From: Pseudomonadota bacterium | GTDB lineage: Bacteria > Pseudomonadota > Gammaproteobacteria > Steroidobacterales > Steroidobacteraceae | Reading direction: 5' to 3' | DNA length: 32,983 nucleotides | Assembly: GCA_021798335.1 (NCBI GenBank) | Contig: JAJZMI010000149.1 | Location: 1 to 32,983 of the forward strand | Shown: positions 10,042 through 32,983 of the stretch, in pieces | Numbering within the stretch: the stretch's first letter is position 1 | Layout of the letters: each line of letters begins with the position of its first letter | The notes under the pieces: model-generated | The model's input: the letters and a program-made list of their open reading frames with translations, nothing else | Told to the model about the DNA's origin: nothing | The model's database searches: none | Translations under genes and position numbers: made by a program

Positions 10042-10048
10042 GAGAGAG

Positions 10049-10084
10049 TTTCACTTCATGAAATAATAGCCCACAATATGAGAC
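10049..10084. promoter_or_regulatory. candidate operator region (TTTCACTTCATGAAA, then CACAATATGAGAC)
   Basis: 15-nt site with TTTCA-N5-TGAAA symmetry at 10049-10063; CACAATATGAGAC at 10072-10084 resembles CATAATATGAAAC (reverse complement of the 926-940 site region). Upstream of the GH42 operon. Confidence 0.33.
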
Positions 10085-10345
10085 TCGTGGGGGCTTTGGG
10101 AAGCCATCGACGATTGCTGAGCACAGCCAGCGGCCCGCAGCGTCGCCACCCCATTGCTCGGCCTGCCGCGCGCAGCGGTTGGCGCGCCGACGCCGCACTA
10201 CAGTGTCGATCGATTCACCATCGGGGCGCTGCCGGCCAACCCCCAGGACTCGGGCCATCCTGGACGAATACTTGCACGGATTCAGCGCCGCGCGCATCGC
10301 CGTCAAGGGACGGGACGAGACGCTGAGGGAAGTACAGCCCTTTGA

Positions 10346-16269: not shown

Positions 16270-17133
16270 CTAACGCGTACGGGGCTTGTCGCTCTTGGCG
16301 GGCCGAGCAGCCGCAGCCGGCTGGCGCCCCGTCCAACCGAGGTCCTCGCTGATGCGTTGCGCGGTGCCGACCACGTCCTTGCTCAAAGTCTGCATGCGAT
16401 GATCGTTCATGTACTGCGCGGCGCTCGAGACGCTGATTGCCGCGATGGTGCGCCCGGCCACATCGCGGATCGGTGCCGCGACGCAGCGGATCTGATCCTC
16501 GTTCTCCTCGAGGTCGAAGGCGAATCCGACACGCACGTAGTGGCGCATGCGCTCGAGCCAATCCTGCAGGCTCACCTCGCCGCGCCGCACGGCGCGCTCG
16601 GCGCGGAACAGCTCGATCCAGGCGTCCGCGTCGAGATCGAGAATCAGCGCCTTGCCGAGACCCGTGGAGGTCACCGGCTGCAGCTCCCCGATCCTGGAGC
16701 GGATATTGATGCGGCGCCTGCCCGGGACCTTGTCCAGATAGAGTACATGGCCGTGGTCGAGCACCCCGAGGTGCACGGTATCCTCGGTGAGCAGCGCGAG
16801 GCGCTCCAGATGCGGCGCGGCGACGCGCGGCAGATCGAGTTCGTCGCGCACCCGGAACCCGAGCTCGAGCAGTTTGGGCCCGAGGCTGTAGCCGCTGTGC
16901 GGCACGAACGACAGGTAGCGCCGCGCGGTAAGCGCCGAGGCCAGCCGGTGAGTGGTGCTGCGCGTGAGGCCGAGCCGCTCGGCCAGCTCCCCGAGCTTGA
17001 TCGGACCCTCGGCGACCACGTCGATCACGTCGAGCCCGCGCAGCAGCGTCTGGCTGCCGAGGCGCGCGCGAACCGCATCCTCATCCCCCTCGGCGGGACG
17101 CTCGAACCTTCCGGATGGACGAGTGCTTCTCAT
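16270..17133 (-). CDS. IclR family transcriptional regulator
   Basis: [64 protein letters not shown] (HTH) plus effector-domain text [22 protein letters not shown]...[10 protein letters not shown]...[20 protein letters not shown]. Divergent from the rhamnose operon. Confidence 0.94.
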
Positions 17134-17159
17134 TATGTGGTACCCGTATTAGTATGTGG
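17134..17159. promoter_or_regulatory. candidate IclR operator: TATGTGGTAC / TATGTGGGAC direct repeat in the iclR-rhmD divergent region
   Basis: TATGTGG at 17134-17140 and 17153-17159 (19-nt register), abutting the iclR start codon in the only non-coding gap between divergent regulator and operon. Confidence 0.4.
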
Positions 17160-17234
17160 GACAAAAGGCGCGGCTGCAACCGCTGCGCGCCGTCTCCATC
17201 ACATCGACCCAATCGCCGATCGCACCCGCCGTAC

Positions 17235-18413
17235 ATGAGTTTTCCGAAGATCAGACAAGTGCGCGCCTTCGTCATCCGTGGCGGCGGCGCCGACTACCAC
17301 GACCAGACGGGCGGGCACTGGATCGACGATCACATCGCCACGCCGATGAGCCGCTATCCGCAGTACCGTCAGAGCCGCCGCAGCTTCGGAATCAATGTGC
17401 TCGGCACACTGGTGGTCGAGATCGAAGCGGCCGACGGCACGATCGGGTTCGCCGTCACCACCGGCGGGGAGCCGGCCGCCTACATCGTCGAGCACCACCT
17501 GGCCCGGTTTCTCGAGGGCCGTGATCCGGCCTCGATCGAGACCATCTGGGATCAGATGTACTTCGCCACGCAATACTACGGACGCAAAGGCCTGGTCGTG
17601 AACGCGATATCGGGGGTCGATCTGGCGCTGTGGGACCTGCTCGGCCGGCTGCGCGGCGAGCCGGTCTATCAGATGCTCGGCGGCGCGGTGCGCGACGAGT
17701 TGATCTTCTACGCCACCGGCTCGCGTCCGGATCTGGCCAAGTCCATGGGTTTCATCGGCGGGAAACTGCCGCTGCATCATGGACCGGCGGAGGGCGAGGC
17801 GGGATTGAGACTCAATCTCGATGCCCTCGGCCAGATGCGCGGCCGCGTGGGCGAGGACTTCTGGCTCATGCTCGATTGCTGGATGAGCCTCGATCTGCCC
17901 TATGCGATCAGACTGGCGCACGGGGCGCGCGAGCACGGCCTGAAATGGCTCGAGGAAGCGCTCTCGCCGGATGATTACTGGGGCTACGCGCAGCTGAAGC
18001 GCAGCCTCCCGCCCGGCATGTTGGTTACTACGGGCGAACACGAGGCGACGCGATGGGGTTTCCGCATGCTGCTTGAGATGGAGTGCTGCGACATCATTCA
18101 GCCGGATGTCGGCTGGTGCGGCGGCCTGACGGAACTGCTGAAGATCTCCGCCCTGGCCGACAGCCGCGGCATCCTGGTCATTCCGCACGGCTCGAGTGTC
18201 TACAGCTACCATTTCGTCGTCACCCGCCACAACAGTCCGTTCGCCGAATTCCTCATGATGGCGCCCGAGGCAGACCGCGTCGTGCCGATGTTCCATCCCC
18301 AGCTCATCGGCGAGCCGGTTCCCCTCAACGGGCGGTTGAAATTGCCGGACACGCCAGGTTTCGGCGTCGAGCTCAATCGCACGCTGCCCCTGCACCGTCC
18401 TTACCCGCGCTGA
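17235..18413 (+). CDS. rhmD: L-rhamnonate dehydratase (enolase superfamily)
   Basis: [65 protein letters not shown]...[37 protein letters not shown]...[12 protein letters not shown]...[11 protein letters not shown]...[17 protein letters not shown]...[12 protein letters not shown] closely follows E. coli-type L-rhamnonate dehydratase as I recall it. Confidence 0.94.
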
Positions 18414-18468: not shown

Positions 18469-19320
18469 ATGAAACTTCTGCGCTACGGCCCCGCCGGCCA
18501 CGAATCTCCCGGACTGCTCGATGCCCACGGCACGCTGCGCGCCCTGCGCGGAACCATCCCGGATATCGACGCCGCCCATCTCTCGGCGCAGAGCCTTGCC
18601 CGGCTGGCGGCCATCGACCCGGCGACGCTGCCGACCGTTTCCGGCAAGCCGCGGCTCGGCGTGCCGTTCGCCGGGACGCGCAAGTTCATCGCGATCGGCC
18701 TCAACTACGCCGATCATGCGGCCGAGTCCAACCTGCCGATTCCCACCGAGCCGGTCGTCTTCAGCAAGGCCGTCAGTTGCCTGCAAGGTCCGAACGACGA
18801 CGTCATGCTGCCGAAGGACTCCAGAAAGAGCGACTGGGAAGTGGAGCTCGGCGTGGTCATCGGTACCACCGCCCGTTATGTGGAAGAGCGCGATGCCCTC
18901 GAGTACGTCGCCGGATACGTCGTGGTCAACGATCTGTCCGAGCGCGAGTATCAGATCGAGCGCGGCGGGACCTGGGACAAGGGCAAGGGGTGCGACACAT
19001 TCGGTCCGGTAGGTCCGTGGCTCGTGACGCGGGACGAGGTGGGAGACGTGCAGAGTCTCGGCATGTGGCTCGAGGTCAACGGCAAGCGCATGCAGGACGG
19101 CAATACGCGCACGATGATCTTCGGCGTGGCCACCCTGATCAGCTACGTCAGCCGCTTCATGACGCTCGAGCCCGGCGACATCATCACCACCGGCACGCCC
19201 CCCGGTGTGGGCATGGGCCAGAAACCCGAGCCCGTCTATCTCAAGCCCGGGGACCGCATGCGGCTCGGCATCGACAAGCTCGGCGAGCAGGCCCAGACCG
19301 TGTATGCCTGGCGGCGCTGA
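18469..19320 (+). CDS. fumarylacetoacetate hydrolase family protein, probable 2,4-diketo-3-deoxy-L-rhamnonate hydrolase
   Basis: FIAIGLNYADHAAESNLPIPTEPVVFSKAVSCLQGPNDDVMLPKDSRKSDWEVELGVVIG...VNDLSEREYQIERGGTWDKGKGCDTFGPVGPWL...GDIITTGTPPGVGMGQKPEPVYLKPGD; function assigned from context between rhmD and SDR. Confidence 0.86.
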   Translation: MKLLRYGPAGHESPGLLDAHGTLRALRGTIPDIDAAHLSAQSLARLAAIDPATLPTVSGKPRLGVPFAGTRKFIAIGLNYADHAAESNLPIPTEPVVFSKAVSCLQGPNDDVMLPKDSRKSDWEVELGVVIGTTARYVEERDALEYVAGYVVVNDLSEREYQIERGGTWDKGKGCDTFGPVGPWLVTRDEVGDVQSLGMWLEVNGKRMQDGNTRTMIFGVATLISYVSRFMTLEPGDIITTGTPPGVGMGQKPEPVYLKPGDRMRLGIDKLGEQAQTVYAWRR

Positions 19321-19332: not shown

Positions 19333-20082
19333 ATGACGCTGTATTCGGGACGTTTCACGCGGCGCGTTGCGGTCGTGACCGGCGGCGCTTCGGGTGTCGG
19401 CCGTGAAGCCGCGGCACGCATCGCCCTCGAGGGCGGCCGGGTGTGCCTGTGGGACTGGGACGAGAAAGCCCTGAGCGCGGCCGCACAGGCGATCCCGGGC
19501 GCCCAGATCGCCAAGGTCGACGTGGCGGATGCGGACCGGGTGGCGCAAGCCGCGGAGCGCACCTTTGGCGCCCTCGGCCGTATCGATATTCTGATCGCCA
19601 GCGCCGGGATCACCGGCCCCACCGCGACGCTCTGGGAATACCCGCCGCAGGAGTGGCGCCGGGTCATCGACGTCGATTTGCACGGCATATTCAACACCTG
19701 CCGCTCGACCGTCCCCTACATGCTCAAGAACGACTACGGCCGGATCGTCAACATCTCGTCCGTCGCCGGCAAGGAAGGCAATCCAAATGCATCGGCCTAT
19801 TCGGCCGCCAAGGCGGCGGTGATCGGCCTGACGAAATCGCTCGGCAAGGAGCTGGCGCAAACCGGAATACGAGTCAACGCCGTGACACCGGCGACCTTCA
19901 GGAGCCCGATCCTCGCCCAACTGCCGCAAAGCCAGATCGAATACATGCGCTCGAAGATTCCCATGGGCCGGCTCGGCGAGGTCGAGGAAGTGGCGGCGCT
20001 GGTGTGCTGGCTGGCGAGCGAGGAATGCTCCTTCTCCACTGCCGCCACCTTCGACATCTCCGGCGGCCGCACGACCTACTGA
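19333..20082 (+). CDS. SDR family oxidoreductase, probable 2-keto-3-deoxy-L-rhamnonate 4-dehydrogenase
   Basis: Rossmann VAVVTGGASGVGREAA, NISSVAGKEGNPNASAYSAAKAAVIGLTKSLGKELAQTGIRVNAVTPA; operon position beside the FAH hydrolase and rhamnonate dehydratase. Confidence 0.85.
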   Translation: MTLYSGRFTRRVAVVTGGASGVGREAAARIALEGGRVCLWDWDEKALSAAAQAIPGAQIAKVDVADADRVAQAAERTFGALGRIDILIASAGITGPTATLWEYPPQEWRRVIDVDLHGIFNTCRSTVPYMLKNDYGRIVNISSVAGKEGNPNASAYSAAKAAVIGLTKSLGKELAQTGIRVNAVTPATFRSPILAQLPQSQIEYMRSKIPMGRLGEVEEVAALVCWLASEECSFSTAATFDISGGRTTY

Positions 20083-20101: not shown

Positions 20102-21004
20102 ATGACACCCGACCTCACCATGGTCGATGCCCACATGCATCTGTGGGACCTGAAACGCATCCGGTATCCATGGCTCACCCCGCCGCTGCCCGTCGGCATC
20201 ACCGGGGACGTCAGCCCGATCGCCCGGGACTACCTGCTCGACGACTATCTGGGCGATGCGGCCGGCGGCGGCGTGCACGTGCGCAAGATCGTCCACATCG
20301 AAGCGGGCGCCGATCCGGCCGACGCTCTTGCCGAAACGCAGTGGCTGCAGAGTATGGCCGCTGCGCGCGGCTATCCGCAGGCTATCGTGGCCCATGCCGA
20401 GCTGCAGCGCTCCGGGGCCGCCGAGCTGCTCGAGCGGCATGCCGCGCACCGCAACGTACGCGGGATACGCCAGATCCTCAATTGGCACCCGGACCCGGCC
20501 AAGACGTATACGCCGCGCGATCTGCTGGCCGATGAGGCCTGGTGGGCGGGGTTCGCGCGCCTGAAACGCCACGGACTGTCGTTCGATCTGCAGATCTACC
20601 CGGGACAAATGCCCGCTGCGGCGCGGCTGGCGAGCCGCCACCCGGACACACCCCTGATCCTCAATCACACCGGCATGCCCGTGGAGAAAGACGCTGCGGG
20701 CATCGACGCCTGGCGCAGCGGCATGCGGGCGCTCGCGGCGCAGCCGAACGTCGCGGTCAAGATCTCGGGGCTCGCGATGCTCGATTGGCACTGGAGCGAT
20801 GCGAGCCTGCGCCCGTTCGTGCTCGAGACCCTGGAACTCTTCGGCGCGCAGCGGACCATGATCGCGAGCAACTTTCCCGTCGACCGCCTGTTCGGGACGT
20901 TCGGCCAGTTCTGCGCGGCCTACACGCGCATCCTCGCGGGCGCGAGCGCCGCGGAGCGCGCCAACCTCTACTCGGGCACCGCCGAGCGGATTTATCGGAT
21001 CTGA
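20102..21004 (+). CDS. amidohydrolase family (COG3618-like), probable L-rhamnono-lactonase
   Basis: MVDAHMHLWDLKRIRYPWLTPPLP (HxH motif), VRGIRQILNWHPD, LILNHTGMPVEKD, VAVKISGLAMLDWHWS, ERTMIASNFPVDRLFG-type text; operon context. Confidence 0.83.
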   Translation: MTPDLTMVDAHMHLWDLKRIRYPWLTPPLPVGITGDVSPIARDYLLDDYLGDAAGGGVHVRKIVHIEAGADPADALAETQWLQSMAAARGYPQAIVAHAELQRSGAAELLERHAAHRNVRGIRQILNWHPDPAKTYTPRDLLADEAWWAGFARLKRHGLSFDLQIYPGQMPAAARLASRHPDTPLILNHTGMPVEKDAAGIDAWRSGMRALAAQPNVAVKISGLAMLDWHWSDASLRPFVLETLELFGAQRTMIASNFPVDRLFGTFGQFCAAYTRILAGASAAERANLYSGTAERIYRI

Positions 21005-21005
21005 C

Positions 21006-22088
21006 ATGACGCCAAATCCCCTGCTCGGTGTCTTTTTCCATTGGCTCGGCGGATTCGCCGCGGCGAGCTTCTACGTGCCCTACCGGTCCGTGCGCGGCTG
21101 GTCGTGGGAGGTGTTCTGGCTGGTCGGGGGGATCTTCAGCTGGATCCTCGCGCCGTGGCTGTTCGCCGGACTCGCCACCCATCACCTGCTGGCGGTGCTG
21201 GAGTCGACTCCGCCGCGCACCCTCGCCCTGTGTTATTTCTTCGGCATTCTGTGGGGGTTCGGCGGGCTGACCTACGGGCTGACCATGCGCTACCTCGGCA
21301 TCGCACTCGGTACGGCGGTCGCGCTCGGGCTCACGGCCGCGTTCGGCACCCTCATTCCGCCGCTGGTCGGCGGCCAGCTCTTCGGCAGCCTCATCCACAC
21401 GACCGGAGGGCAGGTCGTGCTGCTCGGCATCGCCGTGGCGCTGGCGGGCATCGCGATCGTCGGCAAGGCTGGTCACAACAAAGAGCGCGAGCAGGCCGCG
21501 CGCCATCTGCTGGAGCACGACCGGACACTGCCGCGCGAGACCGACTTCCGCAAGGGCATCGCGGTGGCGATCTTCTCCGGCATCATGAGCGCCTGTTTTG
21601 CCTACGGACTCGATGCGGGCGCCCCGATCCGTCATCTGACGCTCGCGCAGGGCACGGGCACGCTCTGGGAGGGATTGCCGGTGCTGGTCATCGTGTTGCT
21701 CGGCGGCTTCACCACCAACGCCATCTGGTGTCTGTACCTGATCATCAAGAACGCCAGTGCGCGTGACCTGAAGGGCGGGTTGGACGAGACGGGCGTGAAG
21801 GTCTCCCTGCGACGCAACTATCTGCTGTGCGCGCTCGGCGGTACGGCTTGGTATCTGCAGTTCTTCTTCTACACCATGGGGGAAAGTCAAATGGGCCGAT
21901 ACGGCTTCTCCAGCTGGACGCTGCACATGTCCAGCATCATCATCTTCGCAACCCTGTGGGGTCTGGCGCTGAAGGAATGGCGGGGCGCGAGCCGGCGCAG
22001 TCTCGCCATCATGACCGCCGGCCTGGTGACCCTGGTGGGCGCAACGGTGGTGATCGGGCTCGGCAACTACCTCGTGGTGCGCGGATGA
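21006..22088 (+). CDS. rhaT: L-rhamnose:H+ symporter (RhaT family)
   Basis: NPLLGVFFHWLGGFAAASFYVPYRSVRGWSWEVFWLVGGIFSWILAPWL...FGGLTYGLTMRYLGIALGTAVALGLTAAFGTLIPP...FSGIMSACFAYGLDAGAPI; highly typical RhaT text. Confidence 0.94.
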   Translation: MTPNPLLGVFFHWLGGFAAASFYVPYRSVRGWSWEVFWLVGGIFSWILAPWLFAGLATHHLLAVLESTPPRTLALCYFFGILWGFGGLTYGLTMRYLGIALGTAVALGLTAAFGTLIPPLVGGQLFGSLIHTTGGQVVLLGIAVALAGIAIVGKAGHNKEREQAARHLLEHDRTLPRETDFRKGIAVAIFSGIMSACFAYGLDAGAPIRHLTLAQGTGTLWEGLPVLVIVLLGGFTTNAIWCLYLIIKNASARDLKGGLDETGVKVSLRRNYLLCALGGTAWYLQFFFYTMGESQMGRYGFSSWTLHMSSIIIFATLWGLALKEWRGASRRSLAIMTAGLVTLVGATVVIGLGNYLVVRG

Positions 22089-23338
22089 GCGCCCCCCGAG
22101 GGGTTGGATGGATCGCGGCCCTCGCCGCCTGCGCCGTCCCGGCCGCGTGGGCCGCAGGCGCCGCGCACTGGACCGAGGCCTGGTACGCGCCGCCGTTTCC
22201 GACCACGGCGGTATGGGGTTGCAATCAGCAGCGCACCTTCACTCACCAGTCGGTACGCCAGACCGTGCAGCTCGAGGCCGGTGGCAACCGTGTGCGCATA
22301 CGCCTGACCAACGAGCTCGGGGTCTCGCCGGTCCGGTTCGCCGAAGTGACGGTCGCGGCATCCTCGCCGACGGGCGTGCTGCTGGCGGGTACCGTTCATG
22401 TCGTGACCTTCCACGGCGAGCGCGGTGGCGTCATCCCGATCGGCAAGGCGTGGGTGAGCGACCCGATCGGCATGAAGGTGCGCCGGTTCGAGAATCTCGC
22501 GATCTCGGTGTATTACCCCTCGGGCGCCACGCCGGCGGGCCAGCTGAAGCACGTCTGGGTCTCGCCGCCCGGCAATCACGTGACTCAGCGGGTCTGGCCG
22601 CAGGGCAGCCGCCCGCAGGCGCCGGAACTGGCGAACGGTGTCGAAGTCGCCACCGCCGGGCCACGCCCGGTGTTGGTCGCGTTCGGCGATTCGATCACGA
22701 AGGGCTTCTGCTCCACCGCCGGCATGCACCTCGGTTATCCGGAGCAGCTGGCGCGGCTGCTGGCGGCGCATGCCGCCGATCGACGCTGGGTGATCATCAA
22801 TTCCGGGATCAGCGGCAACCGCCTGCTGCACGACGGGGCGGGACCCAAGGCGCTCGCGCGTTTCAGTCGTGATGCGTTGGATATCCCCGGTGTGCGGGCC
22901 ATCGTGCTTCTCGAGGGCATCAACGATATCGGCTGGGCGTACGATCCGGACGGCGATACCGGCCCCGTACCCGCCTCGGCCATCATCGGCGCGTATCGCG
23001 ACCTCATCCGCCGTGCGCACGCCCGCGGCATCGCGATCTACCTCGGTACGCTGACGCCCTATCTCGGCTCCACCTACGAGCGAGCGGCGGGCGAGCAGGT
23101 GCGTCAGCAGGTCAATGCCTGGATCCGCAAGGGCCGGGGCTTCAACGGTGTCATCCACTTCGACGGGGCGTTGCGCGATCCGCGCCATCCGCACCATTAC
23201 CTCGGCGCCGATCAGTGCGGTGACGATCTGCACCCCAACGACAGCGGGTATCGCATCATGGCGCAGACCGTCTACAACGAGCTGTTCGCGCCCGGCAAGC
23301 CGCTGGCGCGCGCGGCGGCGGCGAATTCACGCGGCTGA
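22085..23338 (+). CDS. exported SGNH/GDSL hydrolase (carbohydrate esterase-like)
   Basis: ATG overlaps the rhaT stop (ATGA); signal peptide MSAPRGVGWIAALAACAVPAAWAAGA; VLVAFGDSITKGF, SGISGNRLL, GINDIG, DDLHPNDSGYRIMA (SGNH blocks I, II, III, V). Confidence 0.9.
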   Translation: MSAPRGVGWIAALAACAVPAAWAAGAAHWTEAWYAPPFPTTAVWGCNQQRTFTHQSVRQTVQLEAGGNRVRIRLTNELGVSPVRFAEVTVAASSPTGVLLAGTVHVVTFHGERGGVIPIGKAWVSDPIGMKVRRFENLAISVYYPSGATPAGQLKHVWVSPPGNHVTQRVWPQGSRPQAPELANGVEVATAGPRPVLVAFGDSITKGFCSTAGMHLGYPEQLARLLAAHAADRRWVIINSGISGNRLLHDGAGPKALARFSRDALDIPGVRAIVLLEGINDIGWAYDPDGDTGPVPASAIIGAYRDLIRRAHARGIAIYLGTLTPYLGSTYERAAGEQVRQQVNAWIRKGRGFNGVIHFDGALRDPRHPHHYLGADQCGDDLHPNDSGYRIMAQTVYNELFAPGKPLARAAAANSRG

Positions 23339-23401: not shown

Positions 23402-24076
23402 ATGCCGAATCACACACTCGCTTTGTTGCACACCTCGCCGGTGCTGACGCCGCTGTTCGCGTCGCTCTGTGATCGGTGGCTGCCCGAGACACGGATCTTT
23501 CACCTCGTCGACGAAAGCCTTATCAAGAACACGATTCAGGCGGGACACCTGCAGAAGGTGACGGTCCGGCGGCTCGCCGCATTGATCGGGTCCGCCTTCG
23601 ATGCGGGCGCGGACGCGGTGCTGGTGACGTGCTCCTCGATCGGGCCGGGTGTCGAGGTGGCGCGCCAGCTGTACGATCGGCCCGTGCTGCGGGTCGATGA
23701 GCCGATGGCCCGCGATGCCGTCCGGCGGGGTCGCCGGATCGGCGTTCTGGCCACCCTGCGCACCACGCTCGAGCCGACCTCGGCGCTGGTGCGCGCTCAG
23801 GCGAGCGCAGCGCACCGTCCCATCGAGATCGTCGAGTGCCTGTGCGAAGGCGCATTCGAGGCGGTGCTCTGCGGCGACATGGCGAGGCATGATCGCCTGG
23901 TCGGCGAGGCGCTGATCGAGAGGATGCGGGACCTCGACACGATCGTGCTGGCGCAGGCGTCCATGGCGAGAGTGGTGGCGGCGCTCCCCGCGGACGCCCT
24001 CAAGGTGCCGGTGCTCTCCAGCCCCGAATCGGGTGTCCGCCAGGTGCGTGAAATATTCGGCCTCGGGACCGGCTGA
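23402..24076 (+). CDS. aspartate/glutamate racemase superfamily protein, function unknown
   Basis: LALLHTSPVLTPLFASL...GADAVLVTCSSIGPGVEVARQLYDRPVLRVDEPMARDAVRRGRRIGVLATLRTTLEPT...DTIVLAQASMARVV. Confidence 0.8.
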   Translation: MPNHTLALLHTSPVLTPLFASLCDRWLPETRIFHLVDESLIKNTIQAGHLQKVTVRRLAALIGSAFDAGADAVLVTCSSIGPGVEVARQLYDRPVLRVDEPMARDAVRRGRRIGVLATLRTTLEPTSALVRAQASAAHRPIEIVECLCEGAFEAVLCGDMARHDRLVGEALIERMRDLDTIVLAQASMARVVAALPADALKVPVLSSPESGVRQVREIFGLGTG

Positions 24077-25348
24077 ATGCCGAAGAAGCGCTATGCCGTC
24101 GTCGGCCTGTTGAGCGTCGTCTCGGTCATCACCTTCCTCGATCGAATGGCGATCGCCGTGTTGGGTCCGCGGATCCAGCATGACCTGGGTCTGACGCCGG
24201 AGGAATGGGGCTGGGTGCTCAGCGCCTATGTCATCGCCTATGGCTTGTTCGAGATACCTTCAGGGGCGCTCGGTGACCGGCACGGCCAGCGGCGAGAACT
24301 GTCACGCATCGCGGCATGGTGGTCCGCCTTCACGGCGCTGACCGGTGCCTGCACGAGCTTCGTGCCGCTCGCCATCGTGCGCTTCTGCTTCGGCATCGGA
24401 TCGGCAGGCGCCTACCCGAACGCCTCCGGCGTGCTGTGGCGCTGGCTGCCGGCGCGAGAGCGGGCGCGCGGTCAGGGGGCCGTATGGGCCGCGAGCCGCC
24501 TCGGCGGCGCGCTTGCGCCGCTGCTGCTGGTGCCGCTGGCGGCCTGGGTGGGCTGGCGCCCGGTGTTCTGGGTCCTCGCGGTCATCGGCGCGGCCTGGGC
24601 GCTCACCTGGTGGTTGTGGTATCACGACCGGCCGGCCGAGCAGCCCGGCATCCGCGCCGAAGAGCTGCGCGAGATCGGCTCCGGACACGAGGGGGCGCAC
24701 GGCGGGCGCGGCGCGTTGCGCCGGTTGTTCAAGCTGCGCCAGCTGTGGCTCATCGTGCTCGCCTACGGCTGTTATGGCTGCGGCAGCTGGTTCTATTTCA
24801 ACTGGTTCCCGACTTGGATGGTTCACGCCGGACACTTCACGATGGCGCAGATGGGTGTGTTTGCCGCCTTTCCGTTTCTGCTCGGCATCGGCAGCAACCT
24901 CGTCGGGGGCGCGGTGTGCGACCGGCTGGGGCTGGCCATCGGGATCCGCAGCGCCACGCGCATCATGACCACCGGCTGTCTGATCGGGGGGGCGGCGCTG
25001 CTGGGTGCCATGAGCCTCGTCACCAGCCAGACCGCGATCGTCGTTCTGGCGACCGCGGGGTTCGCGACCATGGACTTCATGTTGCCGGCCTCCTGGGCGA
25101 TGTGCATGAGCATCGGGGGCAGTCACGGCGGCGCGGCCACCGGGGTGATGAACACCGCCGGTCAGGCGGGCGGTGTGTTGTGCACGCTTGCGTTCGGCTA
25201 CATCGCCGAAGCCACCGGCAACTACGAGCTGCCGGTGCGGGCCATCGCATTCATGGTGCTGATCGCGGCGATCGTCTTTTCACGCATCGACTGCACCGCG
25301 GGATTGCCCGCCGAGCCGAACGCTCTCGAGGCGCCTGTGCCGGGCTAG
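24077..25348 (+). CDS. MFS transporter, anion:cation symporter (sugar-acid) type
   Basis: FLDRMAIAVLGPRIQHDLGLTPEEWGWVLSAYVIAYGLFEIPSGALGDRHGQRR...FGIGSAGAYPNASGVLWRWLPARERARGQGAVWAASRLGGALAPLL; immediately follows the preceding stop (TGAATG). Confidence 0.9.
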   Translation: MPKKRYAVVGLLSVVSVITFLDRMAIAVLGPRIQHDLGLTPEEWGWVLSAYVIAYGLFEIPSGALGDRHGQRRELSRIAAWWSAFTALTGACTSFVPLAIVRFCFGIGSAGAYPNASGVLWRWLPARERARGQGAVWAASRLGGALAPLLLVPLAAWVGWRPVFWVLAVIGAAWALTWWLWYHDRPAEQPGIRAEELREIGSGHEGAHGGRGALRRLFKLRQLWLIVLAYGCYGCGSWFYFNWFPTWMVHAGHFTMAQMGVFAAFPFLLGIGSNLVGGAVCDRLGLAIGIRSATRIMTTGCLIGGAALLGAMSLVTSQTAIVVLATAGFATMDFMLPASWAMCMSIGGSHGGAATGVMNTAGQAGGVLCTLAFGYIAEATGNYELPVRAIAFMVLIAAIVFSRIDCTAGLPAEPNALEAPVPG

Positions 25349-25406: not shown

Positions 25407-26720
25407 CTACTTGCCCAGCCTGACGCGCTCGAAGAATTCCTCGCTCCCGATTTGTCCTCCCTTGAGAACCAACTCCAGCCCGTCGTGACGCGAGTGGCGG
25501 TCGGCATGGGCGCGGCACAAGGGCGCGCCGGGCTCGAGCCGTCCGGCCCAAGTGAGCGCCGACAGGCCAAGCTGCGCGACCGCGTGGCTCGAAGTGTCGC
25601 CCCCCGCGAGCAGTACACGCCGCTGCTGCGGCACGCCCGCCAGAATGCGCGTCAGCAGCTCGCCCATCCGCCGGCCGAGACCCTCGCCCGATGGGCGTGC
25701 GCCGGCGGGAAGCGGGCCCACTGCGCTGTAGAGGACGGTGCTGCGCCCGCGGCGCAGGCTGTTCACCGCCGCACGCACCGCGCGGTCCTCGATCTGTGCG
25801 CCGCCGCCGTCAGGATGCGCTGCCGGATCGAGCGCGATGCCGTGATACCCGTTGCGCAGCGCAAATTGGATCTGCCGTGCGGTGACCGGTGAGCAGCTGC
25901 CGCTCATGACCAACAGAGCATCGGCCGGCCGGATCGAGGCCGGCGATGGCGCCTCGGCGGGAATCACGGCGGTCTGTCGCCAGGCCGCCAGCAGCGCGTA
26001 GGTCAACCCGGAGCTGCCGGCGCAGAAGAGCCTGTGGGCCTGAGCCTGCCGCCACAGCAGCCGGCCTGTCTGCGCCAGATCCGCCTCGCTCACCCCGTCG
26101 AACAGCACCGCTTGGTCGCCGGCGGCAAGGCACGCGGCGAGCGCTTCGCCGGCCCTGTCCCGCGCCAGCGCCGGCAGCTCCACCGACCCGATGCGCAGGG
26201 CGGTCTGCGCCGCCAGATGCCGGCGCAGATCCGCCTCGTACATCGGGGTCACCGGATGGGACCGCATGGTCGGATGGCGGTCGATCCGGTGCACCACGCC
26301 GCCGGCGGCGGCGAACAGATTCCCGAACACGAGGTAGCGACCGAGATGGGGCGCGGCCACCACCAGTGGCACGAACGGCCCCGGCAAGACACTGCGGCCG
26401 ATCTCGAGCGCGCGGCCGATCGAGCCGATTGCAGGCGAACTGTCGAACGTCGAACAGGTCTTGTAGTGCACGACCGGCGCGCCGAGCGTCCCAAGGTCGC
26501 GGAACACCGCCGGCAGATGCGCGCTCATCCACTCGCGGGTGCGGCTGCGGCTGTCGCCGGCAATTCCGACCGCCTGACATCCGGCGAAGCGCTCGAGCTG
26601 CGAGCTGCTCGGCGGCCCGACGAACAGCACGCTGCGCACGCCGGCCGAGGCCAGCGCCTCGAGCACATCGGTCGAGCCCGTGAAGTCATCGCCGTAGTAA
26701 GCGTAGAGCGGACTAGCCAT
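25407..26720 (-). CDS. four-carbon acid sugar kinase family protein (DUF1537 / OtnK-like)
   Basis: YAYYGDDFTGSTDVLEALASAGVRSVLF (substrate-binding domain), LLVMSGSCSPVTARQI, VLLAGGDTSSHAVAQLGL, LVLKGGQIGSEEFFERV (nucleotide-binding domain). Confidence 0.92.
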   Translation of the reverse strand: MASPLYAYYGDDFTGSTDVLEALASAGVRSVLFVGPPSSSQLERFAGCQAVGIAGDSRSRTREWMSAHLPAVFRDLGTLGAPVVHYKTCSTFDSSPAIGSIGRALEIGRSVLPGPFVPLVVAAPHLGRYLVFGNLFAAAGGVVHRIDRHPTMRSHPVTPMYEADLRRHLAAQTALRIGSVELPALARDRAGEALAACLAAGDQAVLFDGVSEADLAQTGRLLWRQAQAHRLFCAGSSGLTYALLAAWRQTAVIPAEAPSPASIRPADALLVMSGSCSPVTARQIQFALRNGYHGIALDPAAHPDGGGAQIEDRAVRAAVNSLRRGRSTVLYSAVGPLPAGARPSGEGLGRRMGELLTRILAGVPQQRRVLLAGGDTSSHAVAQLGLSALTWAGRLEPGAPLCRAHADRHSRHDGLELVLKGGQIGSEEFFERVRLGK

Positions 26721-26793
26721 GATTCATGCCGTGCGCGGTACGGGTCCCGGCATTCGAGGTCACGCGGCATCTCATGAGCGACACGCGCGGCCG

Positions 26794-28080
26794 TCAGCGC
26801 CGGAACGCCGCCAGCGCCTCCGCCAGCTCACGATGCTCGCGAGCGTACTCTTCGAGCGAAATGCCGGCGACCGCCGCCGCCCACGCCTGGCGCAGGCTGC
26901 GCACGCCGGCGGCCGCGCCGCCTGGGTGTCCGATGATGCCCCCGCCGCAGGCGTGAATCAGCTCGACCGAGCCGAGCGCCTGCCACGTGCCCGGAACCTG
27001 CAGCGCCGTTTGCCCCGATGAAAATACGGGCATGATCTCGCAGCCGCGCGCCGGGGGCGCGAACATCGGCGTGAGACACTCGCGCGCCGAGGCGATGACC
27101 GACGCGTTGCTCTCGCAGAACTTGTTGTCGAGCCCGTTGACGTGCACGTGGTCGATGCCGGCGAGCCGCCACAGCTTCTGCCACGCGACGAAGCTGATGC
27201 CGATCGCGTTCGAGCGGCCGAGCAGACCCCAGCCGTTGCGGTGGCCGTGAATCGGCACCTGGCAGCGCGCGCGCAGCGCCGTCAGCGCCGGCAGTCCGAT
27301 ACTGTTCAAGCTCACCATCACGCAGTTGCCGCCCTCGGCCACCACATGCTCGTGCCGGCGCAGCATCTGGTCGATCTCGCCGGTGATGTTCGCGGCATAG
27401 AGTACCCGCTGCCCGGTGCGATCGCCGTGCCGGCGCAACACGCGCATGACCGCGCTGAATCGCTCCTCGAAGGGACACAGCGGCCCGTCGGCCTGCAGCT
27501 CGTCGTCCTTGATGAAATCGATGCCGGCCGCGGCGAGCTCGGCCACGCGCTGCGCGGTGTCCGCCGGAGATAGTCCGACACTTGGCTTGATGATCGTGCC
27601 GATGAGCGGGCGGCCGCGCACGCCGATCATGTCGCGCGTGCCCGCCGCACCGAATTGCGGACCGGGGTAGGCGGTCAGGAATTGCGGCGGTAGCGTCAGG
27701 TCGAGCAGTCGCATCCCCGAGAACGGCTGCAGCTCCCACAGATTGCCGGCGATGGTGGCGAGCAGGTTCGGCAGCGAGGGACCGAAGTTGTGCAGCGGCC
27801 AGGACAGCGTCACCTCCGCGGTTCGCCAGCGTGCCCGGCCTGCCGCCGGCGCCCAGGCGCCGGGCAGGGACGGCGCCGGCGACTCTCCGGTCTCGGTCAG
27901 TGACTCGACGCGCGCGCCGAAACGCGCGCGCAACTCGTCGGTCTCCCCGGCCACCCGCACGAACGTGCCGGTCGACTGCTCCCCGGCCATGACCGCCGCG
28001 GCCTCCGCCAGCGGTCGCGCGGTCTCGATCCAATAGCGCGCGAGAACGCGCGGTTGCTCAGGTCCGCTGGAAGTAGACAT
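26794..28080 (-). CDS. RuBisCO-like protein (form IV-type RLP)
   Basis: GEQSTGTF, IAGNLWEL, GTIIKPSVGLSP, GIDFIKDDELQADGPLCPFEERF (carbamylatable-Lys/metal-ligand motif KDDE), VPIHGHRNGW, IDHVHVNGLDNKF, FSSGQTALQ, ACGGGIIGHPGG. ATG 28080 overlaps the upstream GH127 end. Confidence 0.93.
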   Translation of the reverse strand: MSTSSGPEQPRVLARYWIETARPLAEAAAVMAGEQSTGTFVRVAGETDELRARFGARVESLTETGESPAPSLPGAWAPAAGRARWRTAEVTLSWPLHNFGPSLPNLLATIAGNLWELQPFSGMRLLDLTLPPQFLTAYPGPQFGAAGTRDMIGVRGRPLIGTIIKPSVGLSPADTAQRVAELAAAGIDFIKDDELQADGPLCPFEERFSAVMRVLRRHGDRTGQRVLYAANITGEIDQMLRRHEHVVAEGGNCVMVSLNSIGLPALTALRARCQVPIHGHRNGWGLLGRSNAIGISFVAWQKLWRLAGIDHVHVNGLDNKFCESNASVIASARECLTPMFAPPARGCEIMPVFSSGQTALQVPGTWQALGSVELIHACGGGIIGHPGGAAAGVRSLRQAWAAAVAGISLEEYAREHRELAEALAAFRR

Positions 28081-29881
28081 TGTAGGATTCGTTCTGTACG
28101 GCATAGAACGGTATGAACAGAATCTGCTGGCCGTCATCCATCTGCCGGTAGGTTTGGCGTGCGCCGCTCACCGCGTGCAGTGCCGAGGGCCGCAAGCGCG
28201 GTACGGGCGCGCCGGGTCCGGCGAAGTTCAGTGCGCTGTACACGAGCGGTCCGCGCAGCAGCGCCACCGTATCCGGATGCGACCGGTCGATCGCCTGGGT
28301 GCGAAATGACTGCGGCAGGCGCAGCTGCACCCGGTCGCCGTCGCGCCAGGTACGCCTGATCTCGGCGAACGTGCCCGGATCGGCCGCCAGGCTCAGGCGC
28401 CGGCCGTTGACCTGGATCTGCGGATCGGCCTCGAGCCAGCCCGGCATGCGGATTCGCAGCGCGAAGTCCGCCGGCGCGGCGGTCTCGATGCGCAGTTCCA
28501 CCGTCTCGCCGGCCGGATAGTCGGTGTGCTGTGTGAGGGTGATGGCCCGGCCGCCGCTGCGCCACCGCACCCGTGAGGGCGTGAACAGATTGACATAGAG
28601 AGCCCCGGGCGCATGGAAATAGGCGTTTCGCACGTAGTCCGCCACGCCTTGCGCCAGGGTGCCGGAGCAGCATGGCCATTTTTCCGGATAGAAGACCTTC
28701 TTCCCGTCCGGGTGATAGCTCGAGTAATACGGCGAGTTGCCGTTGGAGTCCGGCGGCTTCACCGTCATCAGCCCGTTCCACATGATCCGCTCGAGCCCGT
28801 CGCCGTAGCGCGCATCGCCCGTGAAGCGCATGAGGTAACGTGCGGCCTTCATCGTCGCGAAAGTGCCGCACGGCGTCTCGTAATGATTTGCCGTCGTGGT
28901 CAGGCTCGAGGCGAGCGCGCCGGTCCCCGGGGTGAGCAGCAGCTCGTTCGGTCCCCAGCCGCCGGTGGCGTAGCACTGTTCCTCGAGAAACCTCCAGCCA
29001 TTGACGACGGCGTCCCGGTAGCGCGGTTCGCCGAGCTGGATATAGGCCATCGCTGCGGAGCTGAAGGCCATGACGTGGCTGTATGCCTGCTGTCCTGCCA
29101 GCACGTTCTCGCCGCGCGCCAGCGGGTCGAAGTACGGTCCGTCGAGCAGATACTTCACGGCCAGGTCGCGGATGCGCCGCTCCCCGGTCAGATGCGCGGC
29201 AGTGAACAGGTTCTCCGAGACGATGTAGGTTTCGTCATAGGGCGGATTTTTCACGCCGATGCGATTGCGGCTGACCGGCGAAACGAACGGTAGCGCGCCG
29301 CGGATCACCCGCGGAATCAACTGGCGCGCGGAGCGCACGCCGCTCAGGTAATACGCGTCGATCAAGCCGATCATGTGCTTGTCGAGCACGTAGGCGGGCC
29401 ACACCTTCCATGCGCCTTCGCCGGCATACGGCACCGGATTGGCCTCGAGCGCTTCGGCAAAGCCGTGGATCAGCTCGTGTACTTTGTGCCGGCACGCAGC
29501 GTCGCCGGTGCAGCGCCCGAAGCGCGCGATGCCGGAAACGTACTGGCCGAACGCATGACCGGGTATGAAGCCTCCTTTGCCGTACCAACCGCCCATGTCG
29601 ACGCCCGGTGCGTGCAGTCCGGCGTGCTGCCGGTACACCTGCAGCAGCCGATCGTTGTCGAGCGCCAGGTAATGGGCGTGGATGAAGTCGTACTGGGCCT
29701 TGAGTGGACCGCCGGTCAGCGCCACGTCGGCATAGTCGAACTCGCGCAGAGGCTCGACGGCCGTCGTGTTGGGAGTCGCGGCCCTGGCGCGGCGCGGCCA
29801 CAGGGTGCGTCGCGCGGCGAGGCCGGCGCCGGCTGCCGTTGCTGATTTCAGGAAGGTCCGGCGAGTGGTGGTTGAAGTCAT
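28058..29881 (-). CDS. Tat-exported GH127/DUF1680 family glycoside hydrolase (beta-L-arabinofuranosidase-like fold)
   Basis: TTTRRTFLKSATAAGAGLAARRTL twin-arginine leader; YALDNDRLLQVYRQHAGL-like DUF1680 text, GGWYGKGGFIPGHAFGQYVSG, TTTANHYETPCGTFATMKAARYLMRFTGDARYGDGLERIMWNGL, WPCCSGTLAQGVADYVRNAYFH. ATG at 29881 overlaps the upstream stop (ATGA). Confidence 0.9.
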   Translation of the reverse strand: MTSTTTRRTFLKSATAAGAGLAARRTLWPRRARAATPNTTAVEPLREFDYADVALTGGPLKAQYDFIHAHYLALDNDRLLQVYRQHAGLHAPGVDMGGWYGKGGFIPGHAFGQYVSGIARFGRCTGDAACRHKVHELIHGFAEALEANPVPYAGEGAWKVWPAYVLDKHMIGLIDAYYLSGVRSARQLIPRVIRGALPFVSPVSRNRIGVKNPPYDETYIVSENLFTAAHLTGERRIRDLAVKYLLDGPYFDPLARGENVLAGQQAYSHVMAFSSAAMAYIQLGEPRYRDAVVNGWRFLEEQCYATGGWGPNELLLTPGTGALASSLTTTANHYETPCGTFATMKAARYLMRFTGDARYGDGLERIMWNGLMTVKPPDSNGNSPYYSSYHPDGKKVFYPEKWPCCSGTLAQGVADYVRNAYFHAPGALYVNLFTPSRVRWRSGGRAITLTQHTDYPAGETVELRIETAAPADFALRIRMPGWLEADPQIQVNGRRLSLAADPGTFAEIRRTWRDGDRVQLRLPQSFRTQAIDRSHPDTVALLRGPLVYSALNFAGPGAPVPRLRPSALHAVSGARQTYRQMDDGQQILFIPFYAVQNESYNVYFQRT

Positions 29882-31014
29882 GATGATATCTCGCGATGCA
29901 GGCGGTTGATCGCCGCGATGAGCGCGGCGGCCGGTGCGCGCGTCGCCAACGCCTCGTTGAGGCGCTGCGCGGCCGCAATCTGGAATGGCATGTATCCGGG
30001 ATGGCGCGGGCGGACCCACGCGCCCTCGAGTGTTGCCCGCGTGTTGCGGAAGAAGTCGAGCGAATCACGATTGGCGAGCGGGTCCTCCCACGCGGCGCGG
30101 TGCGCGGGTTGGCCGCCGGCGCCGAGGTACGGTCCGCGTTGCGCTTCTGCATCCGCCACCCAGCGTGCAAATGCCATCGCCGCTTCCCGTTCGGGCGAAT
30201 GCGCCGAGACGGCGATGCCCGTGCCGCCCAGAACCGATCCGCAGCGCGGGCCGCCGCGCGCCAGTGGGGCCAGATCGCCGAATGCGATCGGGATGCCGTG
30301 CGCGCCGGATCGGGAGTAGCTCACATACCCGTAGATCAGGGGTGCGCAAGTGGCGGGGGAGTCCGCTGCGGCCATGCGCTCCAGGACGGCGATGGGATCC
30401 ATTGTCAGACAGGCCGGATCGAGCCGGACAAAAAGCTCGCTCAAGTGCGCGTACGCCTCCTGCCCGGCGCGCGGCTCCAGCAGGTCGCCGTCCTGCACTC
30501 GACCTGGGCATCCGGCCAGGCCGCACAAGGTGAACAGAGCCATGAGGTTGTGCGGCGGCCGCAATGGACAGAGCACCGCGCCTTCGGCGGCGAGGGCCAG
30601 GACCGATGCCCAATCCGCCAAAGGAGCGGACAGCCGGTCGGGACGCCAAGCCTGAACCTGTGCCGCGGCGTCGATCGGGAGAGCCCAGAGCCGCTGCGCC
30701 CAGAAGTAGCTCTGCACAGAGGCGCCGACCGAGCCGCCGGCCAATCGCTCGCAGTCGGCGGCATCGCCGAGCGGCGCGAGGCATCCGGCGCGCGTGACCT
30801 GGCCGACGTGCGGATGATCGATCACGATGAGGTCATGGCGGGCCGCAAGCTCGCTGACCGGAAGGGACTCGAAGTCCTGCAATGAGCGCCGTGCCCACGT
30901 GATGCGCACCCCGGTGCGCGCAAACCACGCCGCCGAGCAGGCCGCGAGCGGCGCGTAGCCCCGGGGGTGATCCCAGGTCATCCCGCGCAAGACGATCGAT
31001 CGGTCATCCGGCAT
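29878..31014 (-). CDS. extracellular solute-binding protein (family 1)-like protein lacking a signal peptide
   Basis: MPDDRSIVLRGMTWDHPRGYAPLAACSAAWFARTGVRITWARRSLQDFESLP...LIVIDHPHVGQ...GSVLGGTGIAVSAHSPEREAAMAFARWVADAEAQRGPYLGAGGQPAHRAAWED (family 1 SBP C-terminal text); N-terminus hydrophilic. Confidence 0.85.
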   Translation of the reverse strand: MPDDRSIVLRGMTWDHPRGYAPLAACSAAWFARTGVRITWARRSLQDFESLPVSELAARHDLIVIDHPHVGQVTRAGCLAPLGDAADCERLAGGSVGASVQSYFWAQRLWALPIDAAAQVQAWRPDRLSAPLADWASVLALAAEGAVLCPLRPPHNLMALFTLCGLAGCPGRVQDGDLLEPRAGQEAYAHLSELFVRLDPACLTMDPIAVLERMAAADSPATCAPLIYGYVSYSRSGAHGIPIAFGDLAPLARGGPRCGSVLGGTGIAVSAHSPEREAAMAFARWVADAEAQRGPYLGAGGQPAHRAAWEDPLANRDSLDFFRNTRATLEGAWVRPRHPGYMPFQIAAAQRLNEALATRAPAAALIAAINRLHREISS

Positions 31015-31049
31015 TGCCCATCCCCCTCACCCGGACACCGCAGGTCCAG

Positions 31050-31078
31050 TTGACTTCATTCGGTAACGAACATAGCAT
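31050..31078 (+). promoter_or_regulatory. sigma70-like promoter for the CoA-transferase operon
   Basis: TTGACT at 31050-31055, 17-nt spacer, TAGCAT at 31073-31078; spacer contains inverted repeat TTCG-GTAA-CGAA (31059-31070). Lies inside the ORF-track extension of the CoA-transferase. Confidence 0.45.
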
Positions 31079-31106
31079 TTATCTACAAACGACGCGAGGA
31101 CACCGG

Positions 31107-32315
31107 TTGAAGACAGCGCACGCGGACCGCGGCACGCCCACGACCGCCGCTGAGCGGCCGCTGGAGGGGGTGCTGGTGCTGGATTTCAGCCAGTTTCTGG
31201 CCGGGCCTTCCTGTTGCCTGCGGCTGGCCGATCTCGGCGCCGAGGTCATCAAGGTGGAGCGCCCACAGGGGGGGGATCTGTCCCGCCGCCTGTATCTTGC
31301 CGATCAGGCGTTCGGCGGGGACAGCGCGCTCTTTCATACCATCAACCGTAACAAGCAGAGCTTCGCGGCGGACCTGAAAAATCCGCTCGACTTGCGGCGG
31401 GCCAAGGCGCTGATCGCGCGCGCGGATGTCATGGTGCACAACTTCCGCCCGGGAGTGATGGAGCGGCTCGGCCTGGACTACGCCACGGTTGCGGACCTCA
31501 ACCCGCGCATCATTTACGCCGCAATCTCCGGTTACGGCTCCGAGGGTCCCTGGCGTACCAAGCCCGGACAGGACCTGCTCGTTCAAGCCATGTCCGGACT
31601 CGCATGGCTTTCCGGGGACGCCGCCCAGGGCCCGGTGCCCATGGGCGTGTCGATCGCCGACCTGATGTCCGGCGCGCATCTGTGCCAAGGCGTGCTCGCC
31701 CTGCTCGTGCGGCGCGCGCGTACCGGTCTCGGTGGACGGGTCGAGGTCAGTCTGTTCGAGTCGGCAATGGACATGCAGTTCGAGCAGTTCACCGCGTTCC
31801 TCAACGGGGACGGGCAACAGCCCCCGCGTGATGCGGTCAACAACGCCAGTGTCTACATCGGCGCGCCGTACGGCATCTATCGAACCGCCGACGGCTACCT
31901 CGCCGTGGCGATGGCGCCGATCGATCGCCTCGGCGAGCTCATCGGCTGCGAGGCGCTGCGCGCCTACACCGATCCGTCCGGTTGGTTTACCGAGCGAGCC
32001 CGCATCAAGTCCCTCCTGGCCGCGCATCTGGCCACCCGGGAGAGCGAGCACTGGCTGGCGATCCTCGAGCCCGCCGACATCTGGTGCGCCGAGGTCTACA
32101 CCTGGCCGCAATTGCTCGAGCACGACGGATTTGCCGCGCTGCGGCTGACCCAGACTATCCGCGATGCCGAACACGGCTCACTGCGCACCACGCGCTGTCC
32201 CATCCGCATCGACGGGGCTGTGCTGACCTCGCCCCGCGGCGCCCCGACGCTCGGCCGCGACACGGATGAAATCGCGCACCGATTCCAGCTCGAATCCGAG
32301 GAGGACCGCGCGTGA
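31107..32315 (+). CDS. class III CoA-transferase (CaiB/BaiF family)
   Basis: [44 protein letters not shown]...[40 protein letters not shown]...[29 protein letters not shown] at 31107 (after GAGGAC) preferred over 31014 because the 31014 extension is non-homologous and carries a promoter-like sequence. Confidence 0.9.
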
Positions 32316-32764
32316 TTGCCGAGCAGTATTTCGAAGACTACGCCCTCGGCAGCGAACGGCGCACGTTCGGCCGCACGCTCACCGAAGCGGACATCGTGAC
32401 ACACGCCGGACAGACCGGGGATTTCTTTCCGCACCATATGGATGCCCAATGGTGCGCGCAGCAGCCGTTCAAACAGCGAATCGCCCACGGCACGCTCGTG
32501 CTGGCCATGGGCATCGGCATGACAGCCGATATCATCAATCCTAGAGCCATCTCCTACGGTTATGATCGCGTCCGATTCATCAGGCCGGTGTACATCGGCG
32601 ATACGCTGACCGTGACCGCGCGCATCAGCGCGCGGCGCGATCACCCCAAGCGCAAGACGCACGGACTGGTGGTGGAGGCCGTGCAGATCGCCAACCAGAA
32701 CGGGCAGACCGTTCTGGCATGTGAGCACCTGTATCTGGTCGAGCGGCGCGAGGCGCTCGCATGA
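32312..32764 (+). CDS. MaoC family dehydratase (hot-dog fold)
   Basis: [43 protein letters not shown]...[15 protein letters not shown]...[26 protein letters not shown] overlap with the preceding gene. Confidence 0.92.
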
Positions 32765-32983
32765 GCCTCGGGCGGCGAGTCGGGTCGCGCCTGCGGGCCA
32801 CGGCCGTTGCCGCCGCTCTCTCCGTGCTGTCGAGCGCGCCCGCCCGCGCGGCCCCGATGCGTTTGGCGCTCTCCAGCGCCGGCTTGAGCTATCCGTTCGC
32901 CGCGGCCATCGCGCGCGGCTTTCGCCGCGCGGCGGCGCGTGCCGGTGTCCAGGCAATCGTGCTCGATGCTCAGAACCGCGTGC
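32761..32983 (+). CDS. periplasmic sugar-binding protein of an ABC transporter (RbsB-like), N-terminal part, runs off window
   Basis: ATGA overlap with the maoC stop; leader [30 protein letters not shown] then [42 protein letters not shown]. Confidence 0.75.

Follow-up and report, generated by a model that had tools for sequence, protein, structure and literature searches.

The window analysed here, the entire contig JAJZMI010000149.1 (32,983 nucleotides; G000:C80:1-32983) and not an excerpt, comes from a gammaproteobacterial genome of the Steroidobacteraceae (2.49 Mb, rated 80% complete). It is best explained as most of a locus that degrades side chain B of the plant polysaccharide rhamnogalacturonan-II (RG-II), which is pectin's rarest component. 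The interval 25407-32983, for which a first-pass annotation had proposed a single catabolic system, is part of a larger gene cluster, and the genes fall into two conserved modules, not one. Module 1 consists of a RuBisCO-like protein (RLP), a DUF1537 kinase, an MFS transporter and an Asp/Glu-racemase-fold protein, here called AGrac. There is roughly an even chance that it forms a self-contained route for aceric acid (3-C-carboxy-5-deoxy-L-xylose, C6H10O6), a sugar of RG-II side chain B. Module 2 (a class III CoA-transferase, a MaoC-type protein, a sugar ABC importer and a solute-binding-protein (SBP)-like gene) represents a pathway of its own that accompanies module 1. The first-pass annotation had foreseen that a branched pectin sugar would be used through an RLP/DUF1537 route not yet described. 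That part is supported, with aceric acid ranked over apiose, while its single operon-pathway did not survive. None of the papers searched describes how aceric acid is catabolised, and there is a real chance that this is the first.

The conservation of gene order and modules is far beyond chance. A scan for the RLP over the genomes of 84,980 species returned 80 loci. The gene order and overlaps of the window recur in seven related loci, and in the closest relatives (L002-L007, L030) the entire arrangement is found again, with the CoA-transferase, MaoC and SBP genes; the neighbourhood of GH127, RLP, kinase and CoA-transferase genes described by the first-pass annotation is conserved in related loci. 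Both modules are present in gammaproteobacteria, sphingomonads and Acidobacteriota as well as on one plasmid of Bacteroidota. Loci of type A combine the RLP and kinase with c2, a PGDH_C-type protein (PF16896) that we take to be ApnO, and some also have an ApsD-like member of the Gfo/Idh/MocA family and an ApnL-like protein of roughly 600-710 residues with no Pfam domain; we presume the names ApnO, ApsD, ApnL and OiaT from neighbourhood and PGAP labels. Loci of type B, to which the window belongs, combine the RLP and kinase with AGrac and the MFS transporter, usually together with a GH127-type protein and rhamnosidases, and c2 is not nearby. A region of about 73 kb in Hephaestia caeni holds an apiose front end with the glycolate oxidase GlcD, a GH127-RLP-kinase block and an MFS-AGrac block, along with rhamnose genes, the L-lactate dehydrogenase LldD, a CoA-transferase block, two GH137 homologues and an apiosidase-family gene. 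The most compact version lies on a plasmid of Rufibacter (Bacteroidota), where the RLP, kinase, AGrac and an SBF-family transporter are encoded by four consecutive genes adjoining a pectinesterase, a GH28 and a polysaccharide lyase. That all these genes are chance neighbours without a functional link is very improbable and already contradicted by the conservation data. The RLP is patchy within the window genus (4/25 genomes), as chance would allow, but in four lineages spanning three phyla the same modules are found together, both chromosomally and on plasmids, with Fisher values of 1e-13 and 2e-11.

In Xanthobacter autotrophicus, D-apiose is catabolised by OiaK and OiaT, a 3-oxo-isoapionate-4-phosphate transcarboxylase/hydrolase, according to the part of PMC6302742 that summarises Carter et al. 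(2018). The kinase of the window, the sole PF07005 match in its genome, has the OiaK equivalog NF042436 as its best NCBIfam family (469 bits, under the cut-off of 700). The RLP scored below cut-off against both the OiaX equivalog NF042437 (436 bits; cut-off 700) and the RuBisCO form III equivalog TIGR03326 (260 bits; cut-off 497), and the ApnO-linked RLPs tested were also under the OiaX cut-off (440-466 bits). Its AlphaFold model is closest to 3nwr (TM 0.90). The motifs TIIKP, KDDEL, HGHRNG, HVNGL and SSGQ are present, and the RuBisCO catalytic residues are retained, including the equivalent of His327, where OiaX has Gln. Identification of the RLP as OiaX was rejected on the score, on this residue and on the 41-45% identity to PGAP-labelled OiaX proteins. 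In a maximum-likelihood tree of 90 RLPs, a set in which no assayed OiaT sequence is included, the AGrac-linked RLPs of Acidobacteriota, sphingomonads and the window genus form one group of 30 rows (support 94/68): 25 are AGrac-linked, five are unassigned and none has ApnO nearby. Its neighbours in the tree are further acidobacterial RLPs, which are accompanied by ApnO alone or by ApnO and AGrac, and the clade of the window RLP lies next to RLPs linked to ApnO in Xanthobacteraceae and other groups. Only three conserved positions in the RLP and two in the kinase differ between AGrac-linked and ApnO-linked proteins, so the pair most likely performs OiaK/OiaT chemistry, as predicted from these alignments, on a substrate that is identical or very similar. 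Almost no residue that would change specificity was found in this comparison, and the sequence does not prove a changed substrate.

The choice of substrate starts from what module 1 lacks. It contains no redox enzyme, and the Rufibacter RLP operon likewise has none, not even a dehydrogenase; the imported acid should therefore already be at the oxidation level of the branched 3-keto acid. Aceric acid fits and apionate does not, because only aceric acid is isomeric with the needed ketose. In the proposed route, exported glycosidases would free aceric acid from RG-II side chain B and the MFS transporter would import it. AGrac would then isomerise the aldose to the 2-ketose by moving the carbonyl from C1 to C2. 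The product, CH3-CHOH-C(OH)(COOH)-CO-CH2OH, would be 3-oxo-isoapionate with CH(OH)CH3 replacing CH2OH. The kinase would phosphorylate the terminal CH2OH of the ketose, and the OiaT-type RLP would move the carboxylate and hydrolyse a carbon-carbon bond to give L-lactate and 3-phosphoglycerate. The atoms of this scheme, whose chemical steps are all inferred, balance, and an oxidant would not be needed. A gene resembling FMN-dependent L-lactate dehydrogenase is present in the loci, and the rhamnose pathway also makes lactate.

The isomerase proposed for this route is an unusual enzyme. The AlphaFold model of AGrac (pLDDT 94.7) resembles glutamate and aspartate racemases in Foldseek (TM about 0.76). 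Cys77, in the motif VTCSS, is invariant across 21 homologues, while the second catalytic position, which is Cys in racemases and was placed by comparing the motifs with the pattern known from that family, is Gln185 (LAQASM) in all of them. AGrac is thus unlikely to be a two-base racemase, as its second catalytic Cys is replaced. Its gene is conserved across loci together with that of the MFS transporter, and the RLP is found in 8 of the 9 acidobacterial genomes with a strong AGrac match. We infer that AGrac acts as a sugar isomerase in module 1, and hold this role, together with aceric acid as the substrate, to be about as probable as its opposite. AGrac homologues with the same Cys/Gln pattern also occur in Rhizobium and Sinorhizobium (L113, L118) beside FAD oxidoreductases and ABC transporters.

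The first-pass annotation had recognised no upstream apiose enzymes and had named the remaining apiose genes, just outside the window, as the finding that would speak against it. A genome-wide search, both with the c2 profile and for any member of PF16896, found none in the window genome (G000), in seven related genomes (G001-G007) or in the acidobacteria G008, G010, G015 and G016. The ApnL-like protein, whose identity was taken from gene neighbourhood, is absent from the same genomes. Two of the seven related genomes correspond to same-genus genomes rated 98% and 96% complete, and apiose genes lying just beyond the contig were rejected on this genome-wide absence. ApnO and ApnL are also absent from the Rufibacter plasmid. 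Among 396 Acidobacteriota genomes, 11 carry the RLP; eight of these have AGrac without ApnO and three have ApnO without AGrac (Fisher, with no correction for relatedness: 1e-13 for AGrac with RLP, 0.006 for the exclusion of AGrac and ApnO). A variant D-apiose route is an unlikely alternative. Apiose or apionate would be its substrate, and an unrecognised enzyme, whether AGrac or a product of the Gfo/Idh/MocA and SDR genes in module 2, would replace ApsD-ApnL-ApnO before OiaK and OiaT. Apiose is also an RG-II sugar, apiosidase-family genes lie in several sphingomonad loci, and the conserved positions of RLP and kinase are nearly identical to those of the ApnO-linked lineage. However, conversion of apionate to 3-oxo-isoapionate is an oxidation, which the redox-free Rufibacter operon does not provide for. 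Moreover, most sphingomonads have ApnO-ApnL in addition to AGrac, with one RLP, and AGrac is therefore not a simple substitute. Among the exceptions is the cultured Sphingomonas kyeonggiensis (L011), in which ApnO is missing. As the sphingomonads bearing both ApnO and AGrac have a single RLP each, both routes should share kinase and RLP. Genes for glycolate oxidase GlcD and a GlcF-like protein were also seen in sphingomonad loci (G018:C2:276737-280680; G009:C2:950470-954384, the latter in a genome without ApnO). Their role in loci of the apiose type would be to use the glycolate that OiaT forms along with 3-phosphoglycerate.

RG-II as the target of the locus is well supported. The product of the gene at 3824-4987 has only a marginal GH43/GH32 match in Pfam. 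Its best PDB match is to 5mt2/5mui (92 bits over 302 residues), which we take to be the GH137 structures of BT0996. Its best curated family is NF049877 (E 2e-31), matched only in the GH137 part (positions 44-354). The protein is thus homologous to the GH137 domain of BT0996. The GH137 of BT0996 is the first enzyme that cleaves RG-II side chain B (PMC9843283). The homologue is present in all eight RLP-bearing genomes of the window group and in none of seven same-genus genomes without the RLP. It was found in 6/8 acidobacteria with AGrac and RLP compared with 5/388 others (Fisher 2e-9, 396 genomes), in 7/7 sphingomonads and on both plasmids, and in none of the five non-sphingomonad genomes tested (G019-G023) in which the RLP accompanies ApnO. 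Together with GH42, GH29, a GDSL esterase and the rhamnose pathway, the rhamnosidases, which belong to the same locus type, fit with side chain B. The GDSL gene fits because side chain B O-acetyl groups are removed by one esterase (PMC7939467). The reference list of PMC12282258 includes a work that mentions an aceric acid-containing side chain. The release of aceric acid by GH127, which the first-pass annotation had suggested, is a weak argument. The GH127-type protein, with its start at 29881, carries a Tat-like signal (MTSTTTRRTFLKS) and belongs to the superfamily, but its best solved structure is the GH146 5opj (140 bits), ahead of the GH127 4qjy (91 bits) and BT1003 5mqo (61 bits). The candidate function of aceric acid hydrolase is unsupported by the subfamily scores. 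No match to any RG-II glycosidase was obtained for a sphingomonad protein of 645-765 residues.

It is also possible, though improbable, that module 1 acts on another branched acid, such as one related to hamamelonate or 2-carboxyarabinitol, a second RG-II acid or an acid from a plant glycoside. RLP-kinase pairs with other dehydrogenases in Rhizobium etli and Streptomyces point to the pair as a general tool for branched acids, and some acidobacterial loci have only rhamnosidases nearby. On the other hand, the GH137 homologue tracks the AGrac type specifically, and the minimal operon is without the dehydrogenase that a 2-C-branched aldonate would need.

Several further observations weigh against aceric acid as the substrate and against the RG-II assignment. 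The functions of this lineage's enzymes are predictions, and to our knowledge no sugar isomerase of the Asp/Glu-racemase fold has been described. AGrac homologues (48-49% identity) also occur in rhizobia without an RLP nearby, and AGrac co-occurs with ApnO in a small number of acidobacterial loci (L035, L052-L054). Two AGrac- and ApnO-bearing acidobacteria tested (G020, G021) are without the GH137 homologue, and five GH137-bearing acidobacteria are without AGrac and RLP; all of these genome counts are not phylogenetically independent. The GH127/146 protein lies outside the aceric acid hydrolase subfamily (NF049879: 85 bits, cut-off 950). GH139, a family that RG-II degraders are reported to feature (PMC12282258), was not identified here.

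The second module stands apart from the aceric acid route. In Shinella, a cluster with 55-66% identical counterparts of the CoA-transferase, MaoC, SBP-like, Gfo/Idh and SDR proteins of the window genus also holds L-fuconate dehydratase and L-rhamnose mutarotase, with the RLP not nearby, and Roseateles has the same layout (L147 and L146, respectively). The Rufibacter plasmid carries CoA-transferases, MaoC, Gfo/Idh and both SBP-like proteins (43-55%) with RhaT and IclR. Across the Rufibacter, Shinella and Croceibacterium modules, identities to the window proteins are 54-61% for the CoA-transferase and 55-70% for MaoC. A single system in which CoA-transferase, MaoC and RLP act on one substrate, as the first-pass annotation had assumed, is accordingly quite improbable. 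The 4-nt overlap of the SBP and GH127 genes speaks for it, as do the two modules on the Rufibacter plasmid and the presence of the SBP marker of module 2 in 20/27 AGrac+RLP genomes against 0/40 others tested. Nevertheless, the remaining seven AGrac+RLP genomes are without this marker, module 2 has its own uptake (RhaT or the sugar ABC importer), and in rhizobia it stands alone beside L-fuconate dehydratase. Since module 2 recurs in rhizobia beside L-fucose genes, it is probably a pathway for a 6-deoxyhexose, another side-chain sugar; that this is the 2-O-methyl-L-fucose of side chain B is a guess. The Roseateles/Shinella module with L-fuconate dehydratase is a candidate for a deoxysugar pathway not yet described, and the papers searched yielded nothing on CoA-transferase sugar modules or on 2-O-methylfucose breakdown.

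The SBP-fold protein at 29878-31014 shows no visible export signal, nor do its homologues in Alphaproteobacteria and Bacteroidota, and it is probably cytoplasmic. Signal-less SBP-fold proteins (also L114:1282-2382 and L156:17375-18535) were seen in operons with class III CoA-transferases across phyla, where a second SBP-fold protein (SBP1b) accompanies the first. It is doubtful, but conceivable, that both modules together form the first route for both special sugars of side chain B, aceric acid and 2-O-methyl-L-fucose. Module 2 would then oxidise 2-O-methyl-L-fucose to the acid and transfer CoA to it, elimination/hydration by MaoC would release methanol (a CoA-dependent O-demethylation), and the cytoplasmic SBP-fold protein would be a new pathway component.

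The features of the window are collected in Table 1. The genes, overlaps and gaps of the first-pass annotation agree with the reading frames and Pfam: SBP/GH127, CoA-transferase/MaoC and MaoC/ABC-SBP overlap by 4 nt each, GH127/RLP by 23 nt, and the RLP and kinase genes are separated by 73 nt. Pfam scores of the kinase, RLP, GH127 and CoA-transferase are far above cut-off, and those of SBP and MaoC are above it. That annotation missed two decisive partners, namely the GH137 homologue and the AGrac and MFS genes (23402-25348), which abut each other and converge on the kinase gene. A full-length homologue (Peripla_BP_4) of the truncated ABC binding protein was found in relatives.

Table 1. Features of contig JAJZMI010000149.1 with the evidence for each assignment
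Feature	Position	Strand	Evidence
TonB-dependent receptor	1091..3802	+	PF00593, PF07715
GH137 homologue (RG-II side chain B beta-L-arabinofuranosidase family), predicted	3824..4987	+	best PDB 5mt2/5mui; NF049877; genome-level co-occurrence
GH29 alpha-L-fucosidase	5827..7671	-	PF01120, 325 bits
GH42 beta-galactosidase/arabinopyranosidase type, 5' end uncertain	7556..10714	-	PF02449, 371 bits
IclR regulator, divergent	16270..17133	-	PF01614, PF09339
L-rhamnonate dehydratase	17115..18413	+	NCBIfam PRK15440, 739 bits (cut-off 393)
2,4-didehydro-3-deoxy-L-rhamnonate hydrolase	18469..19320	+	NCBIfam NF053535, 494.8 bits, just below cut-off 500
SDR dehydrogenase, rhamnose set	19333..20082	+	PF13561; position kept in sphingomonads
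Amidohydrolase-2 lactonase, rhamnose set	20102..21004	+	PF04909
RhaT L-rhamnose/proton symporter	21006..22088	+	NCBIfam PRK13499.1-4, 503 bits (cut-off 468)
GDSL/SGNH esterase, start approximate	22085..23338	+	PF13472
AGrac, Asp/Glu-racemase-fold protein (module 1, proposed isomerase)	23402..24076	+	PF01177; 21-homologue alignment; AlphaFold/Foldseek
MFS transporter, D-galactonate/acid-sugar type (module 1)	24077..25348	+	PF07690; TIGR00893 205 bits, below cut-off
DUF1537 acid-sugar kinase, OiaK-like (module 1)	25407..26720	-	PF07005 188 bits, PF17042 103 bits
RuBisCO-like protein (RLP), putative OiaT-type (module 1)	26794..28080	-	PF00016 252 bits; tree; motifs; AlphaFold model
GH127/GH146-superfamily glycosidase, Tat-type signal	28058..29881	-	PF07944, PF20736; PDB comparison
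SBP-fold protein without signal peptide (module 2)	29878..31014	-	PF13416
Class III CoA-transferase, 5' end uncertain (module 2)	~31014..32315	+	PF02515, 343 bits
MaoC-type hydratase/dehydratase (module 2)	32312..32764	+	PF01575
Sugar ABC binding protein start, cut by contig end (module 2)	32761..32983	+	reading frame; homologue Peripla_BP_4

Other RLPs and regulators were seen among the loci. Three related genomes have a second, distant RLP with 35% identity (G003:C5:32811-33944, G005:C5:48715-49845, G006:C2:19560-20690). Further RLP-kinase pairs lie on plasmids of Streptomyces (L121) and Rhizobium etli (L116), accompanied by an alcohol dehydrogenase and GH78/GH28 or by an SDR and a 2-keto-3-deoxygluconate permease, and on a plasmid of the haloarchaeon Haloarcula (L124) with a TRAP transporter, an SDR and an aldolase. 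In acidobacterial loci, a regulator in which an IclR-type helix-turn-helix is fused to a periplasmic-binding-protein sugar domain (L012:8537-9859 and homologues in L008-L010, L014 and L015) sits upstream of GH127 or the RLP.

RG-II is often described as the plant polysaccharide of greatest complexity. If the aceric acid route is true, a RuBisCO-like protein would gain a new physiological substrate, the intermediate being a deoxy, single-phosphate analogue of the RuBisCO intermediate, and the Asp/Glu racemase fold would gain a sugar-isomerase role. The route would also provide a set of marker genes for the use of RG-II by acidobacteria and sphingomonads of the soil and would explain how an RLP/kinase pair can last without apiose enzymes.

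How does the locus compare with known systems? The OiaK/OiaT apiose route is the closest. Compared with the proteins of apiose-type loci in Xanthobacteraceae, the window RLP shows about 60% identity and the kinase about 48%, nearly all conserved positions are common and the same chemistry is expected. However, the window genome has AGrac and an acid MFS transporter instead of ApnO/ApnL, and its locus is linked to a GH137 homologue, rhamnosidases and GH42. The OiaX decarboxylase branch of Rhizobium shares the RLP and DUF1537 kinase pair, but an OiaX locus carries triose-phosphate isomerase and RpiB homologues that are absent at the window locus. The RG-II degradome of Bacteroides thetaiotaomicron (BT0996 GH137, BT1003 GH127, BT1012 apiosidase) resembles the locus in its GH137 enzyme and side-chain B logic, and sphingomonad loci have apiosidase-family and GH106 genes. 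It differs in that the window GH127/146 protein is not BT1003-like, GH139 was not identified at the locus and an intracellular acid route would be added. The tetronate pathway OtnI-OtnK-OtnC follows the logic of keto-isomerase, DUF1537 kinase and decarboxylation, as module 1 would, whereas module 1 has the racemase-fold AGrac and an RLP as its last enzyme. Finally, the non-phosphorylating L-rhamnose pathway is encoded by a complete-looking set at 17115-22088, as a neighbour of the RLP route and not as the same route.

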